Shown here in pieces: positions 16,518-24,336 of a stretch of 64,000 nt of DNA. The stretch spans positions 299,892-363,891 of the forward strand of contig JALGYY010000017.1 of NCBI GenBank assembly GCA_025782575.1, in the 5' to 3' direction. Every line of letters begins with the position of its first letter. Positions within the stretch are counted from its first letter, which is position 1. Below the pieces are notes generated by a model that had not been told where the DNA came from, did no database searches, and saw only the letters and a program-made list of their open reading frames with translations. The translations under genes and the position numbers were made by a program. Origin of the DNA: a bacterium (GTDB taxonomy: Bacteria > Orphanbacterota > Orphanbacteria > Orphanbacterales > Orphanbacteraceae).

Positions 16518-18731
16518 CTAGCGGAGAAGAACCAACCGGCGTGTGGACTTTCCGCTATCGGTCTGTATTGACCCGAAGTAAATACCGCTCGGCACCGGCC
16601 TTCCCCCTTCGTTCAAGCCATCCCATGAGACGCTCAACGACCCACCAGGCACAGGGCCGTCAAACAATACCCTCACAAGGCGCCCAGCGAGATCATGAAC
16701 GGTAAGGCGGACCTCCCCCTCGACCGGACCCGCCTCGATTACGGTACGTGGGTTGAACGGGTTGGGGCGCGCCGTGATCCGGAGAGGATTCGGAATGGGG
16801 ACGCCTCCCGGGCCGAGTACGGAGACTGTCGCTTCCTCGAACCACGGAACGGAACCACCGAACGTCCCGGCGATGACCCGGTCCGCCAGGAATGCGATCG
16901 ATCGAACATCTTTCGTAATCAGGCCATCGGATAATTCGGTCCAGTTGTCAGCACCATCCCTGCTCTCGAATATTCCATCGAGAGTGGCGGCGAAGAGATG
17001 ATCCGGGTCGGCGGGATCGATGGCAAGCGCCCAGATACTGAGGTCCGTTAGGCCGTCGTTCTCAGAAGTCCATCCGGCGCCGCCGTTGATCGATTTGTAG
17101 ACGCCCCCTTTTCCCGAGTCCTGATAGTAACCGCCGGCATAGACGATGGACGGGTCAGACGGGTGAATCGCGAGCGCCCTCACAAAGTCGTCGCCCACGG
17201 GGACCTCAGTCCAGTTGCCCGCAAAGTCGTTCGACCGAAAGAGCCCGTCTCCATAAGTTCCGGCGTAGATCAGCGAGGGATCGGCCGGCGTTGTCGCCAC
17301 ACCCCATATTTTATGAGCGCCCATACCGTTCCAGGAAGTGGACCACGTCGCCCCGCTGTCGGTGCTTTTGTGGGGGCCCGAGTATGTACCGGCTAACACC
17401 TCGGTGCTGCTCCCTGTCTTATAGACAAGACAAGTCACGGTAAGATCTCCCACGATTCCTGTGCTGGATGGATTCCAGCTCCCACCCCCGTCGATGGATC
17501 GATAGACGCCCCCGAAGAAAGCGCCCGCCAGAAGTTTGCTCGAGTCATTCGGATCCATTGCGACCGAGCGAACGTCCAGCCCTTCCATCCCCGCCGATGA
17601 TCCGGCCCACGTCCAGCCTGTGTCGCTCGTCACCGATACGCCGCCATAAGATGCGGCCCATGCTGTGCCGGCATCATGAGGGGAGGATACGACTTCCCAC
17701 ACAAAACGGTTCGTGAGCCCGTCACTGCAAGGACTCCATCCGGTCACGGGATTCGCCGTGTGATCGACGCCCCCCCAGTAGCTACCCGTAAAAAGTGAAT
17801 CGCTGCCCCATGCGATCGAATAAGCTTCAGGATCAGTCAGGCCGGAACTCAAAGGTACCCAGATCAAGCCGGCGCTGAACGATCCGAATATCCCGCTCCT
17901 GGTGGCCGCCCAGATATTGGCCGTGGTGGCCGGGTCGAAAACAAGCTCTTCAATATAAACGCTTCCCATGCCGAGATTGGATTCATTCCAGGATGAACCT
18001 CCATCTGTCGTTTTAAAAACGCCCCCACCCGCCGTACCGGCGTAAACACGATCAGAATCGGTGGGATGAACGAGGAGATCCGTCACTATCAACGTCGTGA
18101 GTCCGGAAGCTCGGCGAGTCCATGTCATGCCGCCGTCCGTCGAACGGAAGACACCGTCATCGGTAGCCGCATACCAGGTGAGTGGAGACGAGGCGGCTTG
18201 CGCGATCGCCCGTACGGAGAATTCCGTCAGGCCGGTGTTCGCCGGAGACCAGCTCGTTCCTCTGTTGTCCGTGTAATAGATCCCGCTGCTGGCGGTGGCC
18301 GCAAAAAGACGGCCGCCGTCGAAAGCAAACGTGAGATCCGGAATCGTCAGGTCGGGCAGACCACTATTAACCGGGAACCAACTATCCCCCCGATTGGCAC
18401 TTCGATAAACGCCCCCGCCGCCGGTACCTGCAAACATCGAATCCGGATCGGAGTAGTCCGCGGCAAGCGCGAGTACATCCTTGACTACCAAACCATTATT
18501 CCGAGTCATCCAGCCTGACCCGTCGCCGTCCGAATGAAAGATTCCCCCTCGCTCCGTACCGATGTAGAGCGAACGGGGATCGTCCGGCATCTCCAGAATG
18601 ACGTGCACCCGTCCGCCGAAAGGTCCTCCATCTACGGTCCAGCCGGCATAACCTGCCATGACGGGAGAAGAAACAGCGAGAATCAGTGCAGGGATGACGA
18701 GTCGTTGAGTGATTGATCCGATCCTATTCAA
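16518..18731 (-). CDS. Secreted BNR/sortilin-like beta-propeller protein with C-terminal FlgD-Ig module
   Basis: About 737 residues: signal peptide (QRLVIPALILAVSSPVMA), then more than ten repeats with the BNR/Asp-box pattern S-x-D-x-G-x-(S/T)-W (RSTDGGMTWTR, KTTDGGSSWNE, RSIDGGGSWNPS, KSINGGAGWTSE). These form beta-propellers as in sortilin/Vps10 or glycosidase-like proteins. The C-terminus is a FlgD-Ig-like module (ARPNPFNPRTVIE, LTVHDLAGRLVRVLFDG, SGIYFGSIQ, RRLVLLR). No canonical start is well placed: TTG at 18731 has no ribosome binding site, while GTG at 18776 follows GCAGG but spans the hairpin. It probably depends on read-through from the small gene upstream. Confidence 0.85.
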   Translation of the reverse strand: MNRIGSITQRLVIPALILAVSSPVMAGYAGWTVDGGPFGGRVHVILEMPDDPRSLYIGTERGGIFHSDGDGSGWMTRNNGLVVKDVLALAADYSDPDSMFAGTGGGGVYRSANRGDSWFPVNSGLPDLTIPDLTFAFDGGRLFAATASSGIYYTDNRGTSWSPANTGLTEFSVRAIAQAASSPLTWYAATDDGVFRSTDGGMTWTRRASGLTTLIVTDLLVHPTDSDRVYAGTAGGGVFKTTDGGSSWNESNLGMGSVYIEELVFDPATTANIWAATRSGIFGSFSAGLIWVPLSSGLTDPEAYSIAWGSDSLFTGSYWGGVDHTANPVTGWSPCSDGLTNRFVWEVVSSPHDAGTAWAASYGGVSVTSDTGWTWAGSSAGMEGLDVRSVAMDPNDSSKLLAGAFFGGVYRSIDGGGSWNPSSTGIVGDLTVTCLVYKTGSSTEVLAGTYSGPHKSTDSGATWSTSWNGMGAHKIWGVATTPADPSLIYAGTYGDGLFRSNDFAGNWTEVPVGDDFVRALAIHPSDPSIVYAGGYYQDSGKGGVYKSINGGAGWTSENDGLTDLSIWALAIDPADPDHLFAATLDGIFESRDGADNWTELSDGLITKDVRSIAFLADRVIAGTFGGSVPWFEEATVSVLGPGGVPIPNPLRITARPNPFNPRTVIEAGPVEGEVRLTVHDLAGRLVRVLFDGPVPGGSLSVSWDGLNEGGRPVPSGIYFGSIQTDSGKSTRRLVLLR

Positions 18732-18735
18732 AAGG

Positions 18736-18763
18736 AAAAAGGGGAGACCATGCAGGCCCCCCC
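18736..18763 (-). terminator. Terminator-like hairpin after the lasso-leader-like small gene
   Basis: On the minus strand GGGGGGGCC (18755-18763) pairs with GGTCTCCCC (18741-18749) around a 5-nt loop, nine pairs with two G-T wobbles. It is followed at once by TTTTT (18736-18740). This is a canonical intrinsic terminator shape. It sits 40 nt after the small-gene stop and directly before, or inside, the start of the beta-propeller gene. It could act as an attenuator between them. Confidence 0.7.
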
Positions 18764-18802
18764 GATCTCGATTCACTCTTTTGCCTGCTAAAGCCGCGAC
18801 TT

Positions 18803-18925
18803 CTAGCTGGTCACGTCGTCGTCGTCGTCGTCCGGCGGTTTGACGGAAATCAGTGTAATTTCCTTCACATTGCCCTGACAATCGAATCTCGGCTTCTCGT
18901 AGGTCCGGGTTTTGTCGCTTTTCAT
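18803..18925 (-). CDS. Orphan RiPP-like precursor with lasso-type leader motif
   Basis: 40 residues, ATG at 18925 to TAG at 18803-18805, preceded by AAGAGGAGAACTGCATC, a strong ribosome binding site. The sequence contains YEKPRFDCQGNVKEIT, which fits the lasso-peptide leader motif Y-x-x-P-x-hydrophobic-x3-G-x5-T position for position. If the conserved Thr is at -2, the core would start at Ile and read ISVKPPDDDDDDVTS, with Asp at core positions 7, 8 and 9, where lasso rings close. Ile at core position 1 is atypical, and no B, C or ABC-transporter genes lie in the window. It has its own promoter (18952-18980) and terminator-like hairpin. Coding is well supported; the lasso fate is inference. 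Confidence 0.72.
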   Translation of the reverse strand: MKSDKTRTYEKPRFDCQGNVKEITLISVKPPDDDDDDVTS

Positions 18926-18951
18926 GATGCAGTTCTCCTCTTAGTCTCAAA

Positions 18952-18980
18952 ATACTATCACATGATGTGCGATTCGTCAA
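18952..18980 (-). promoter_or_regulatory. Sigma-70 promoter with palindromic spacer upstream of the small RiPP-like gene
   Basis: Minus strand: TTGACG (18975-18980), 17-bp spacer, TAGTAT (18952-18957). The spacer contains an 11-bp palindrome CACATNATGTG (18959-18969), a possible operator centred between the boxes. The start codon lies 27 bp downstream of the -10. Confidence 0.6.
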
Positions 18981-19007
18981 CCTTGACCTTTCCCCTACTT
19001 CCCGGCA

Positions 19008-22000
19008 CTACCGTATGAGGATCATGCGGCGGGTGGCGGTCTGACCACCACTCTCGAGAGAATAGAAATATGTGCCCGAAGGAGAATCGGCTCCCCGCTC
19101 ATCTTTTCCGTACCAGTAGAACGACTGCTCCCCGGCTGATAGCGAGCCGTCGTGCAGAACCCTGACCAGCTGGCCGGCCGCATTGTAAATAATCAGACGA
19201 GCGTAGCCGGCCGACGGAATCTCTACTGTAATCCTTGTCTGCGGATTGAACGGGTTAGGCACATTCCGATGGAGGAATGCCTGTGTCGACACCGGTGACT
19301 GTCCATTCGACGACTCCGGATCTACGAACTCGGGATCGAGTCGAACTTGATAGGGGATACCGCAGGTATCGGTGTACGTCACATCGAACCAGATATTGAA
19401 ACTACCGCCGGGCCAACCGGTCAAATCGAACTGGTATGTCGAATTGCTCGGCTCTCCGGAACTCCGTCCCCCCTGAGGGAGGTCACCATAATAGGTGGTC
19501 GGGTCCGGAATATTGAGCCATGCAATATCATGATCCATGACGGCCGTAATGCTCCGCGCTTCTCCCGGACCGGTGTTGATCATTTCAATCTGAACGGTCC
19601 AGAACGTGCCGTCAAAATCGACAGTCGACACATCGCCGAGTGCCAGAATCGGCTGTCCCTGATCGCACTCGGTCTCGAGGACACGGGTCGTAACCGATAC
19701 ACACACCGAATCACCCTCGACAAACACCGCGCCCTTGGCGGGATTTCGAGGAGCGATGCAGAAGAAGCAGACATCCAGTCTGTCCTCATCCCCTTCAATC
19801 GCGTCAGCCGGAATCGTGTGTTCGATCGTCACGATTTCTACGCCCCCCGGGGGTATCGGGTCCTGAGGAGCCGGACTCGGCAGAATATTCCAACCGTGCT
19901 CGCTCGCAAATGAGGCGCCCGGCATGGCATCACAGTTCCCGATATTGGTGTATCGGAAATCGTAGGAGACCACGTCACCCGCACCGCCCGTCTGATCGCT
20001 CGTCAGTGCTTCCAATCTGACGGCGCAGACCTCTTCAACCCCCAGAGTCTCATATTCAAAGATCATGTTATTCGGCGCGCACTTCGATTGGACGGCGAGA
20101 GTGATCTTATTCACATCAGTGCAGAGGGCGTTCTCCGGAATCTGAACTTCAACAGGAACCGTGTGCGTGCCCTGGAACTCGCCCGTCATGTCGCCGTCCG
20201 GAAGGCTTACGGCCCATCCGAGACTATCGCTCAAGAACAGATTATAGGCGTCCGGATCACCCAGGTTATCGATGTCATAGAGCAGTGTGAGCGTATCCCC
20301 CGGCATCTCTGACACTGGATTACCAATCTGAGCGGTCACAGTGAAGTCAGAATTGCATGGGGCTTCGCCGACAGTAGAGGTGACGCAGAGCGTGTCACCT
20401 GTCAGGAGCGGCACTCCTGCGCCTTTGAGGATGACAGGGAAATCGAATGCCAGGCAGAACGTCCCGTTTTCGCCGACCTGGGCGTTCTCAGGTATCACAT
20501 GAAAAACACAGAACTGGTCACTGCCACCCGGCTGGAGGGGGATCCGGGCGTTGTCACCGAGAACGGTCCATTCTTCCGATGCCAGGCTGATGTCCACGCT
20601 GAATGCACAGTTCCCCGTATTGGTAACGTCGAAACAGTACTCGAGCGTGTCACCCGGTGCTCCTGTGAGACCGTCCGGGGCGACAGCATCTATTGTCTCG
20701 ATGGGACAAACGGTCTCCGTGACGGAGTCATCGCCAGTTGCGCCGGTAGAAAGTCCGGTCGCTGTTAGTGTCACCGAGGCCTGATCGAAGCAGGCTCCGT
20801 CAGCAGGTGGAATCACATCTACAGAAACAGTAAGTGTGTCACCCTGGTTGATGTTGATCCCCCCAACTGTAGGAGTGAGCTCGACCGTCCAGCCGACCAT
20901 ATCGACGGAGGGAACGAGATCGAACTCTTCGGGGCAGTTGCCCGTATTCGTCACATCGAAGAAGGCGGTGCCTGTCGCCCCGGGGTCGATGCACACCCCG
21001 TTCAATTGAGCGGCGACTGTCACTCCCCCCGGCCCGTGGTCGACGTTCGTAGTGGCGTCATCGTTATCCGTGATGCTGCCGTTATCGCTCTTGGTGGCAG
21101 TGAGAGTGACGATGTCAGATATGATGGCGCAATCCACATTCCCGGGAATCGTGACGTGTACATCGACTGCGGCATTGTCGACTATGTTGATCGTAACCGG
21201 GCTCAGCGAATCGCCGATCAGGAGTGACCAGCCATGATCGGAGACCGCGCTCAGCACGAAATCCGCAGGGTTGTCCCCCAGATTTACCACAGTGAATGCG
21301 TGGGTCACCGTCTGGCCCGGCACATCCTCCTGCGCGACGCCGGGACCCTGAACATCCACGCCCTCCGCCGGTGGAGGATCGATCGTGATCTGACAGTTCC
21401 GCGTGTCCTGGTCGAGCGTGGCTTTAACAACACCGTCCGACACCATCACCGTCATTTGAAAAATGCCGTTCTCGGTCGGCGCGCCGCCGAACTCCCCGGA
21501 TACGCCGTCAATGTTCATTCCATCAGGCTGGCCGGTCACTTCCCAGAAAAGCTGGCCACCTCCACCTGTAGCGGTAAAGGTCACGGGAGTGTACTGCTCT
21601 CCCTCCGTCCCATCGCCAAGCGGGCATGAGGGTGTAACGGTGTTGATGACGAGAGGTGGATTGTTAATCGTCAAGGTGCAGTTGAGCGCGTCCTCCGTAC
21701 CGTCTCCGTCGACGAGCATGATCGCGATCGGGATGTCGGTACCGGCCGTAGTCGGCGTGCCGCTCAGTTCACCGGAACTGCTCCCGATATCCAGACCGTC
21801 GGGCAGACCGCTGCCACTCCAGGTAAACGGTGCCTTTCCGCCTGTGAAAGTGAATGCCACAGGACCATACGGTTCACCGACTGTTCCGTCGGCGATCGGG
21901 CAGATATCGTCGATCACAAGCGGGGCGGCGGCAATCGTGATCTGGCACTGGCGCTGCGCCTGCAGAGGCTGCGCATCTGTGACTGTCACTGTAAATGATT

Positions 22001-23075
22001 TGAATTGGGGTGTGGTCGGCGTACCGACGATCTCGCCCGAATTTACGTTTATCGAAAGACCGGCCGGCAGATTACTCGCCGCCCATGTGTAGGGGGGAAT
22101 ACCGCCTGTTGCGGTGAATGGAGCGGCGGTCCCGTCGTAAAGCTGACCGACCTCGCCGCTCGGAAGAGGACAAGAGGGGGCTTGTGTATCCACCAGGAGA
22201 TCGGCAGGAAACAGCTCCATCGAGCACTGGCGGGTAGCCATGGTCTTCGTCAGCGGGGCGACGTCCGAATCGGTCAATGTAATCGTGTAGTTATATGTAC
22301 CTGGCGTATCGTCCGGGGTACCGCTCACCTCTCCCGTACCGGAGCTGATGTCGATGCCGCTCGGCTGGTCCGCGATAGACCAGCTGTACGGGGGTACGCC
22401 TCCGATCGCCAGGAAGGTCGCCGGCCCGAACGGGTCTCCCACCTTCACGTCTCCCGGGCAGGCGGGACTGTCCTGATTGATCGCGAGCGGCTCACTGGTG
22501 GGGCAGGCGAACGGGTCACACGTCTCGCCGGTTCCGGAAAAGTCACCGGTCGCGAATGTCGTCAGAAAATATCCCGAGCCGGCCCCATCCATTACGAAAC
22601 CGATACACTCATCAGTAGCGGCATCAAACGAAAACGTGCCATATTTTGTGTTGGAATCAAAAGCGAAGGGTGATGAGAACGTGAAATCGACAGACTGGAA
22701 GAGCCAGCATATCAGTGTCGGATAGGTAGCCACCAGAGTGGGGTCGAGCTCGAACATCGCGAGCCGCCGGGCAGGGGTATCGGTCCAGGTTCCCGGAGTG
22801 TTATACGCAAAACTCCATGAACTTTCATCGACCGTCAGGCTGTCCTGAATACAGAATGCACAGTTGGCGGAAAACGCAGTGGCAAGATCAAAAACAATAT
22901 CAATATCGTATGTTTGACTGTTGACCGCCGGGTTGATCCCCATGTCAGCCGGGGTGCCGCATACGCCATCGCCGGTCCGGTCCACACCGAGGAACTGTGC
23001 CGATGCCGGTACGGCCGAAAGTAACGGGACAAGACACAGCGCGAAAATAAACCGCACCCATTTCAACGAACTCAT
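19008..23075 (-). CDS. Large secreted Ig-repeat protein with C-terminal FlgD-Ig module
   Basis: 1355 residues. The signal peptide (FIFALCLVPLLSAVPASA) is followed by a cysteine-containing N-terminal domain of about 180 residues. Next come four to five putative-Ig (He_PIG-like) repeats with the pattern GG-PPY-W---LP-G--I---SGE--GTP (about 210-610). Several NEW3/CARDB-like repeats (VTNTGNCPEEF, VNLGDNPADF, IDNLGDPDAY) run to about 1180. The end is a FlgD-Ig module: NVPNPFNPQTRITVEI, LIIYNAAGQLVRVLHDG, SGTYFYSLESG, RRMILIR. Likely a surface or extracellular structural or adhesion protein. ATG at 23075 follows AGGGGGAAACTG; a longer frame from 23123 lacks that site. No catalytic motifs are seen. 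Confidence 0.88.
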   Translation of the reverse strand: MSSLKWVRFIFALCLVPLLSAVPASAQFLGVDRTGDGVCGTPADMGINPAVNSQTYDIDIVFDLATAFSANCAFCIQDSLTVDESSWSFAYNTPGTWTDTPARRLAMFELDPTLVATYPTLICWLFQSVDFTFSSPFAFDSNTKYGTFSFDAATDECIGFVMDGAGSGYFLTTFATGDFSGTGETCDPFACPTSEPLAINQDSPACPGDVKVGDPFGPATFLAIGGVPPYSWSIADQPSGIDISSGTGEVSGTPDDTPGTYNYTITLTDSDVAPLTKTMATRQCSMELFPADLLVDTQAPSCPLPSGEVGQLYDGTAAPFTATGGIPPYTWAASNLPAGLSINVNSGEIVGTPTTPQFKSFTVTVTDAQPLQAQRQCQITIAAAPLVIDDICPIADGTVGEPYGPVAFTFTGGKAPFTWSGSGLPDGLDIGSSSGELSGTPTTAGTDIPIAIMLVDGDGTEDALNCTLTINNPPLVINTVTPSCPLGDGTEGEQYTPVTFTATGGGGQLFWEVTGQPDGMNIDGVSGEFGGAPTENGIFQMTVMVSDGVVKATLDQDTRNCQITIDPPPAEGVDVQGPGVAQEDVPGQTVTHAFTVVNLGDNPADFVLSAVSDHGWSLLIGDSLSPVTINIVDNAAVDVHVTIPGNVDCAIISDIVTLTATKSDNGSITDNDDATTNVDHGPGGVTVAAQLNGVCIDPGATGTAFFDVTNTGNCPEEFDLVPSVDMVGWTVELTPTVGGININQGDTLTVSVDVIPPADGACFDQASVTLTATGLSTGATGDDSVTETVCPIETIDAVAPDGLTGAPGDTLEYCFDVTNTGNCAFSVDISLASEEWTVLGDNARIPLQPGGSDQFCVFHVIPENAQVGENGTFCLAFDFPVILKGAGVPLLTGDTLCVTSTVGEAPCNSDFTVTAQIGNPVSEMPGDTLTLLYDIDNLGDPDAYNLFLSDSLGWAVSLPDGDMTGEFQGTHTVPVEVQIPENALCTDVNKITLAVQSKCAPNNMIFEYETLGVEEVCAVRLEALTSDQTGGAGDVVSYDFRYTNIGNCDAMPGASFASEHGWNILPSPAPQDPIPPGGVEIVTIEHTIPADAIEGDEDRLDVCFFCIAPRNPAKGAVFVEGDSVCVSVTTRVLETECDQGQPILALGDVSTVDFDGTFWTVQIEMINTGPGEARSITAVMDHDIAWLNIPDPTTYYGDLPQGGRSSGEPSNSTYQFDLTGWPGGSFNIWFDVTYTDTCGIPYQVRLDPEFVDPESSNGQSPVSTQAFLHRNVPNPFNPQTRITVEIPSAGYARLIIYNAAGQLVRVLHDGSLSAGEQSFYWYGKDERGADSPSGTYFYSLESGGQTATRRMILIR

Positions 23076-23208
23076 CAGTTTCCCCCTGTTATGATCAAGT
23101 TGTCCGAAGGCAGGCGAAGTCACACTAGCACCAAATCACGCTAAAGTACAGGGACAAACAGCTTAGCGGACGCTACTCCCCCTTCCTCAGGCAACTCTAT
23201 TGCCGGAA

Positions 23209-23451: not shown

Positions 23452-24336
23452 ATGCCGATAGCCGACAAGGAACTCGTCTCTTTATTCCAAACCGACCCCG
23501 ATCGGGGCTGGGACATCTTTGTCGAGGATTACTCCGACCTCCTCTTCAGTGTGGCCGCCAAATTCGCGTGGGACGAGGACGGGCGTGTCGATCTCTACCT
23601 CCATATCTGCGAAAAGTTGCAGGCTGATAATCTCCGACGGCTCTGTCGATTCGAGCCTGACAGAGAAGGGAGACCCTGCAAACTCTCCACGTGGCTTGTT
23701 ACGGTCGCCCGCAATCTGTGCATCGACTGGATCAGAGGCCGTGACGGCCGCAGGCGGCTGAATGAGCCGATCAAGCGACTTTCCGAACTGGATCAGCTCG
23801 TCTTCCAGACATGTTACTGGGACGGGATGACGATTGCCGAGACCTACGAAACTGTCAGGGGCAAGCACGGGCAGGAGATCGAGTTTCACGGGATCTACGA
23901 TTCGATCAGGCGGATCAACGAAGCGCTCACTTCCAACAACCTCTGGAATCTCGCCAATGACCTGATGCGCATGGTACCCGCCCTCTCTCTCGATTCCGGC
24001 CCCAGGGACGAGGATGGCGAGAGCCGCCGGCTGGAGCTGGGAAGCGGTGCCCCGGGACAGGACGAGGTGCTCGCCGCACGGGAATTCGAGTCTATTTGCG
24101 GGGAGATCCTCGCCTCGCTGGACGACCGGTCGAAAATAATTCTTAAATCCTACTATTTCATGGAGTTACCGGTGCGGGAGATCGCCGATCTCATCCATAT
24201 CCCTGAACATACCGTGTACCGGCAGATCCGGAAACTGACGGCCGATCTTTCGAAACGATTTGCGGAGAAAGACGTTACAGCGAAGAGTCTTCCCGAGGGG
24301 GTGAGGATCCGCCTCGAGTCGGCCCTCCAGACCTGA
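23452..24336 (+). CDS. Sigma-70-family RNA polymerase sigma factor (large ECF-like)
   Basis: 294 residues, longer than ordinary ECF sigmas (about 170-200). Region 2 is seen at about 12-100, ending with CKLSTWLVTVARNLCIDWIRGRDGRRRL. Region 4 is at about 222-270 (LDDRSKIILKSYYFMELPVREIADLIHIPEHTVYRQI), a clear helix-turn-helix. Between them is an extra segment of about 110 residues (WDGMTIAETYETVRGKHG and onwards) rather than the usual short linker. GGGAGG lies 4 bases before the ATG. The next gene encodes a likely membrane anti-sigma factor, so this is probably an envelope- or surface-responsive pair. Confidence 0.8.
   Translation: MPIADKELVSLFQTDPDRGWDIFVEDYSDLLFSVAAKFAWDEDGRVDLYLHICEKLQADNLRRLCRFEPDREGRPCKLSTWLVTVARNLCIDWIRGRDGRRRLNEPIKRLSELDQLVFQTCYWDGMTIAETYETVRGKHGQEIEFHGIYDSIRRINEALTSNNLWNLANDLMRMVPALSLDSGPRDEDGESRRLELGSGAPGQDEVLAAREFESICGEILASLDDRSKIILKSYYFMELPVREIADLIHIPEHTVYRQIRKLTADLSKRFAEKDVTAKSLPEGVRIRLESALQT

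Follow-up and report, generated by a model that had tools for sequence, protein, structure and literature searches.

The linear polyphosphorylated peptides (LPPs) offer the nearest described parallel to the system analysed here. LPP precursors share the motif YxxPxVLxHQxIxFETxxS and are cut after the Thr, and an HprK-like kinase phosphorylates Ser3, three residues past that Thr, often repeatedly (PMC13381572). The LPP cluster of Paenibacillus alginolyticus, lppA-K-B-S-D-N, was published in 2026, and LPPs were described as restricted to Bacillota (PMC13381572). A published structure shows residues N33 and D70 of LppB in contact with the Pro and the Tyr of the leader (PMC13381572). A second point of comparison is the Bsf system of Bradymonas sediminis, in which an RRE, a kinase and a B2 protease act together on one precursor (PMC10368454). 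Paeninodin-type lasso peptides resemble the present system in their kinase, NTP transferase and B1 + B2 set but, as those two papers summarise them, differ in having a cyclase, a WxxP leader and phosphorylation of a C-terminal Ser (PMC13381572, PMC10368454). Literature searches returned nothing on unlinked precursors and, for lasso peptides in Eisenbacteria, nothing beyond one paper with a single mention.

The window, a 64,000-nucleotide stretch of contig JALGYY010000017.1 (assembly GCA_025782575.1), contains a genuine precursor-type gene of 40 codons (Table 1). The gene starts with ATG and encodes MKSDKTRTYEKPRFDCQGNVKEITLISVKPPDDDDDDVTS, for which Pfam has no family. An initial annotation, made from the sequence alone, had reported an exact lasso-leader motif, Y-x-x-P-x-(hydrophobic)-x3-G-x5-T, in this peptide, and the motif is present as Y9-x-x-P12-x-F14-x3-G18-x5-T24. 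The ribosome binding site and terminator-like hairpin that it described were likewise located, as was a promoter-like site. Shuffled sequence contains a mean of 0.4 such promoter-like sites and 0.5 such hairpins. Similar hairpins lie 3′ of the four orthologues that were folded, with z of -1.6 to -3.0.

Table 1. Features of the orphan precursor locus, in window coordinates.
Feature	Position	Strand	Basis or remark
Orphan precursor peptide gene, 40 codons	18803..18925	-	ORF; orthologues at the matching syntenic place in five relatives
RRE-binding leader motif, Y9-E-K-P12-R-F-D-C-Q-G-N-V-K-E-I-T24	18854..18901	-	Alignment; NF033521 in six relatives
Predicted core LISVKPPDDDDDDVTS, assuming a cut right after Thr24	18806..18853	-	Putative; alignment to the LPP cleavage site (after T-1)
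Ser27, invariant T-x-x-S position, proposed phosphorylation site	18845..18847	-	11/11 alignment; LPP spacing
(GAC)6 run, Asp32-Asp37, triplet repeat	18815..18832	-	Sequence; not kept in orthologues (alignment)
Ribosome binding site AGGAG	18935..18939	-	Sequence; 9 nt 5′ of ATG
Sigma-70-like promoter TTGACG-17-TAGTAT	18952..18980	-	Consensus match only
Terminator-like hairpin with T-run, 9-bp, GC-rich	18741..18763	-	Sequence; recurs in relatives
Upstream gene, 1371-aa Ig-repeat protein, FlgD_ig C-terminus	19008..23123	-	Pfam He_PIG, FlgD_ig; 82 nt before peptide
Downstream gene, sortilin/BNR-repeat protein, FlgD_ig C-terminus	16518..18735 (start approximate)	-	Pfam PF15902, FlgD_ig; order kept in relatives

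Orthologues with a matching leader were found in five of six genomes of the same family (E 5e-6 to 5e-4). The order of Ig/FlgD_ig gene, peptide, hairpin and sortilin/BNR-like gene is syntenic in five Candidatus Eisenbacteria relatives, with 69-109 nt between the Ig gene and the peptide and an upstream Ig/FlgD_ig protein of 980-1389 aa. One relative, G002, carries a second copy of the peptide upstream of the Ig gene. In G005 the peptide was not found, but this absence is uninformative: the assembly is 82% complete, and no clear orthologue of the adjacent BNR gene is present in it either. Only three loci came back from a scan of named genomes; all belong to one family, two of them labelled Candidatus Eisenbacteria and the third a Gemmatimonadetes MAG. 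In G005, 64 stretches match the FlgD_ig secreted-protein kind encoded at 16518-23123 of the window, most of them at the C-terminal domain, so FlgD_ig proteins form a large sorting-domain family. Divergently upstream of the window's Ig gene, a 294-aa ORF (23452-24336, + strand) reads like a putative RNA polymerase sigma factor.

The Y, P, I and T of the motif are invariant across 11 aligned peptides, and E11, H18 and E23 (first-row numbering) are kept in at least 90% of them. The His is present in 10 of the 11 and replaced by Gln in the window copy, which is the most divergent orthologue. A Ser three residues past the conserved Thr is also invariant (11/11), and the tails past the leader are unrelated. 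A comparison of the two closest genomes shows 3 nucleotide differences in the 28 codons of the leader part (2 nonsynonymous) and 12 in the 20 codons of the tail (9 nonsynonymous). Judged from these comparisons, the leader is constrained and the core freer, a pattern resembling that of RiPP precursors. In a comparison with a leader HMM, of the kind that the initial annotation had proposed, six related peptides score above the cut-off of NCBI NF033521 (lasso_leader_L3), a leader-only model that is silent on a lasso product. That cut-off is missed by the window copy, whose score against lasso_cyano is only 12.4 bits (cut-off 33). The assignment of a lasso leader is nevertheless right, because the six relatives pass NF033521, and on its alignment the window peptide carries a lasso-type (RRE-binding) leader. 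As a DNA pattern, Y..P.h.....h.E.T occurs at four sites in the 4.9-Mb genome, three of which are the window gene and its two paralogues; the reversed pattern, used as a control, gave none in the same genome.

A genome search placed the two paralogous precursors on contig 13 of the window's genome (G000), where they are followed by a PqqD-type RRE, an HprK-like kinase, a B2 protease, an NTP_transf_5 protein and an ABC-2 exporter. The two genes (L016:11518-11768, - strand) overlap by ATGA (stop/start), an arrangement that suggests coupled translation. The reported lack of B/C genes holds for the vicinity of the orphan gene, but B1 and B2 are encoded elsewhere in the same genome. The recommended look for RRE, cyclase and protease genes at a distance succeeded for RRE and B2, in an operon without a cyclase. 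A genome devoid of RRE and cyclase homologues, which together with conservation of the whole peptide as a folded protein had been named as grounds for abandoning the leader, is not what was encountered, because the genome holds an RRE and a B2 protease.

Every one of the seven family genomes has the operon RRE-HprK-B2-NTase-ABC-ABC, at a syntenic locus and mostly among the same neighbours; this co-occurrence, within seven genomes of one family, is not an independent test. No Asn_synthase homologue lies within the operon in any of the seven. The RRE matches PqqD PF05402 with 62.9 bits and the protease matches NF033537 with 41.5 bits (cut-off 33). The best matches to the predicted RRE structure (pLDDT 90.8) are TbiB1 and TfuB1, whose structures were each determined together with a lasso leader, and its residues Asn38 and Asp75, which align to N33 and D70 of LppB, are invariant. 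Also invariant are kinase residues H141, G156, K162, S163, D179 and D180, equivalent to H148, G163, K169, S170, D186 and D187 of BsfK, which have been shown to matter (PMC10368454), and Cys90, His124 and Glu136 of B2. Neither a fold comparison nor a sequence comparison with the PDB gave a match for the B2 model. Going by residue conservation and structural modelling, the RRE, the kinase and the protease look functional.

Linked precursors were found beside the operon in G000, G001 and G003, and none was recognised beside it in G002, G004, G005 and G006. In G002, G004 and G006, which are good genomes, whole-genome pattern and profile searches find the orphan-type precursor only. The orphan gene is physically linked to the operon in none of the genomes. 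That the operon acts in trans on the orphan peptide is argued chiefly from those three genomes, in which the orphan type is the sole precursor found.

Set against the LPPs, the system has an identical leader spacing (Y0-P3-h5-H8-h11-T15-S18), its invariant Ser at the offset of the LPP phospho-Ser (Tyr 18, Thr 3) and a similar set of RRE, HprK-like kinase, NTP transferase and exporter without a cyclase. LPPs have a signal-peptidase-like LppS, an MsbA-like exporter and an in-cluster precursor, and come from Bacillota, whereas the Eisenbacteria system has a B2 protease, an ABC-2 exporter and an unlinked precursor, and comes from Candidatus Eisenbacteria. At the level of the operon only, the B2 transglutaminase-like protease takes the place of LppS; because of this replacement the LPP label is not given, although the system would work in an LPP-like way. 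The Bsf system shares the RRE B1, the B2 protease, an HprK-like kinase with the same catalytic residues, a nucleotidyltransferase, and a Ser near the core N-terminus that is phosphorylated in Bsf and is the proposed site here. Bsf differs in its cyclase, its Gly1 and Asp8, its Ile at -2 and its in-cluster precursor, and its Ser lies one residue further from the Tyr. The T-x-x-Ser kept past the leader suggests that the operon's HprK-like kinase phosphorylates this Ser.

On balance, we favour the reading that the orphan gene encodes the precursor, unlinked to its enzymes, of a linear RiPP that is phosphorylated on Ser and relies on a lasso-type B2 protease and LPP-like chemistry. The YxxPxh...T leader would be bound in trans by the PqqD-type RRE encoded on another contig. 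The HprK-like kinase would then phosphorylate the invariant Ser three residues past the leader Thr, possibly more than once, and the NTP_transf_5 protein may contribute a further step. The lasso-type B2 cysteine protease would cut off the leader near the Thr, and the ABC-2 exporter would secrete a short Pro/Asp-rich peptide. Because there is no cyclase in the system, this product most likely stays linear, as an LPP-like compound for which the B2 protease replaces the signal-peptidase-like LppS; in short, it is probably phosphorylated and linear and not a lasso. Since its gene lies directly downstream of a gene for a large secreted Ig-like protein, the peptide may act at the cell surface.

A true lasso peptide made by scattered enzymes, with B1 and B2 from contig 13, a cyclase supplied by one of two asparagine-synthetase homologues (C16 or C45) and a ring from Ile1 to Asp7, 8 or 9, is quite unlikely. 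The leader, the RRE and the B2 protease are all present, and the window copy has Asp at core positions 7-9, where the initial annotation had placed the ring site. This run is however a triplet repeat not kept in orthologues, an acid (Asp/Glu) at these positions occurs in only 6 of the 11 peptides and is missing from the other 5, and core position 1 is I, T, V or L and never Gly. With the maturation operon also conserved without a cyclase, formation of a lasso ring is not supported. Both C16 and C45, the remaining route to a lasso, are Cys-less, lie in other surroundings of the window's genome and give partial matches to lasso cyclase models, below cut-off; they could in principle be unlinked cyclases. 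Against this, their neighbours are glycosyltransferase- and amidinotransferase-like, judged by eye, and the 96%-complete G001, which has the operon and both orphan and linked precursors, contains no Cys-less homologue that could be found, only a canonical Cys2-containing AsnB-like asparagine synthetase. Asparagine-synthetase homologues without the N-terminal Cys, at L017:5646-7613 and L018:8447-10351, are linked to no precursor. On the B2 contigs the sole Asn_synthase match is a weak one on contig 13 (G000); it lies ~300 kb away from the operon and was not taken to be a cyclase. The lasso peptide label is not given because the cyclase and the ring acid fail as family features.

The peptide might instead carry a reused leader and no longer be matured, serving as a decoy, sponge or regulator of the RRE or kinase, or acting as a small partner to the secreted proteins encoded next to it. 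The very short and variable tails (e.g. TSFQPPPPK), the constant position after the Ig gene and the operon-linked precursors of three genomes fit such a role. Mere competition with a linked precursor is impossible where the orphan type is the sole precursor found, as in the other three genomes named above, and no copy has lost the Ser of the kinase site; we regard this alternative as unlikely, though it retains some weight. The initial suggestion of a "new precursor or reused leader" came close to the truth. That the ORF arose by chance or is decaying, with a fortuitous motif, is very improbable. Its small size, the divergence of the window copy and the low-complexity (GAC)6 run would fit, but syntenic orthologues in five other genomes with a conserved leader and a variable tail, curated HMM matches in relatives and the recurrence of the RBS and hairpin speak otherwise. 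At the family level the syntenic orthologues and HMM matches already refute it.

Comparable leaders occur in other families. Spread over three contigs (L115, L116 and L117), G231 has five leader peptides (PYTKPTLTKHKPLRDITA...) that are nearly identical and have very short tails. One of its loci combines an RRE, a B2 protease, a radical-SAM-like protein, an HprK-like kinase and a nucleotidyltransferase-like protein; no cyclase was seen there. A locus of G125 (L120:8753-11411) holds an RRE, a radical-SAM-like protein, a YSKPVLTKYGTVKDV leader peptide and an HprK-like kinase, with no B2 or cyclase seen. In G208 and G338, leader-like peptides lie beside RRE-HprK sets with a cyclase-like protein. 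The leader is thus common to several kinds of pathway, since it is found beside both radical-SAM-like (G231, G125) and cyclase-like (G208, G338) sets.

Genome-mining tools commonly seek precursors beside a cyclase. The lasso-type leaders described here are conserved with neither a cyclase nor any other enzyme linked to them. The chances are about even that they mark a class of phosphopeptide RiPPs outside Bacillota that is cyclase-less and B2-processed, and whose main precursor lies away from its enzymes, at a conserved place beside a gene for a large secreted Ig-like protein, so that one operon serves unlinked substrates. Such a class would extend the phosphopeptide RiPP idea past Bacillota and combine it with a lasso B2 protease. 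Finally, the tie to large secreted-protein genes offers a place to look for the role of these peptides.
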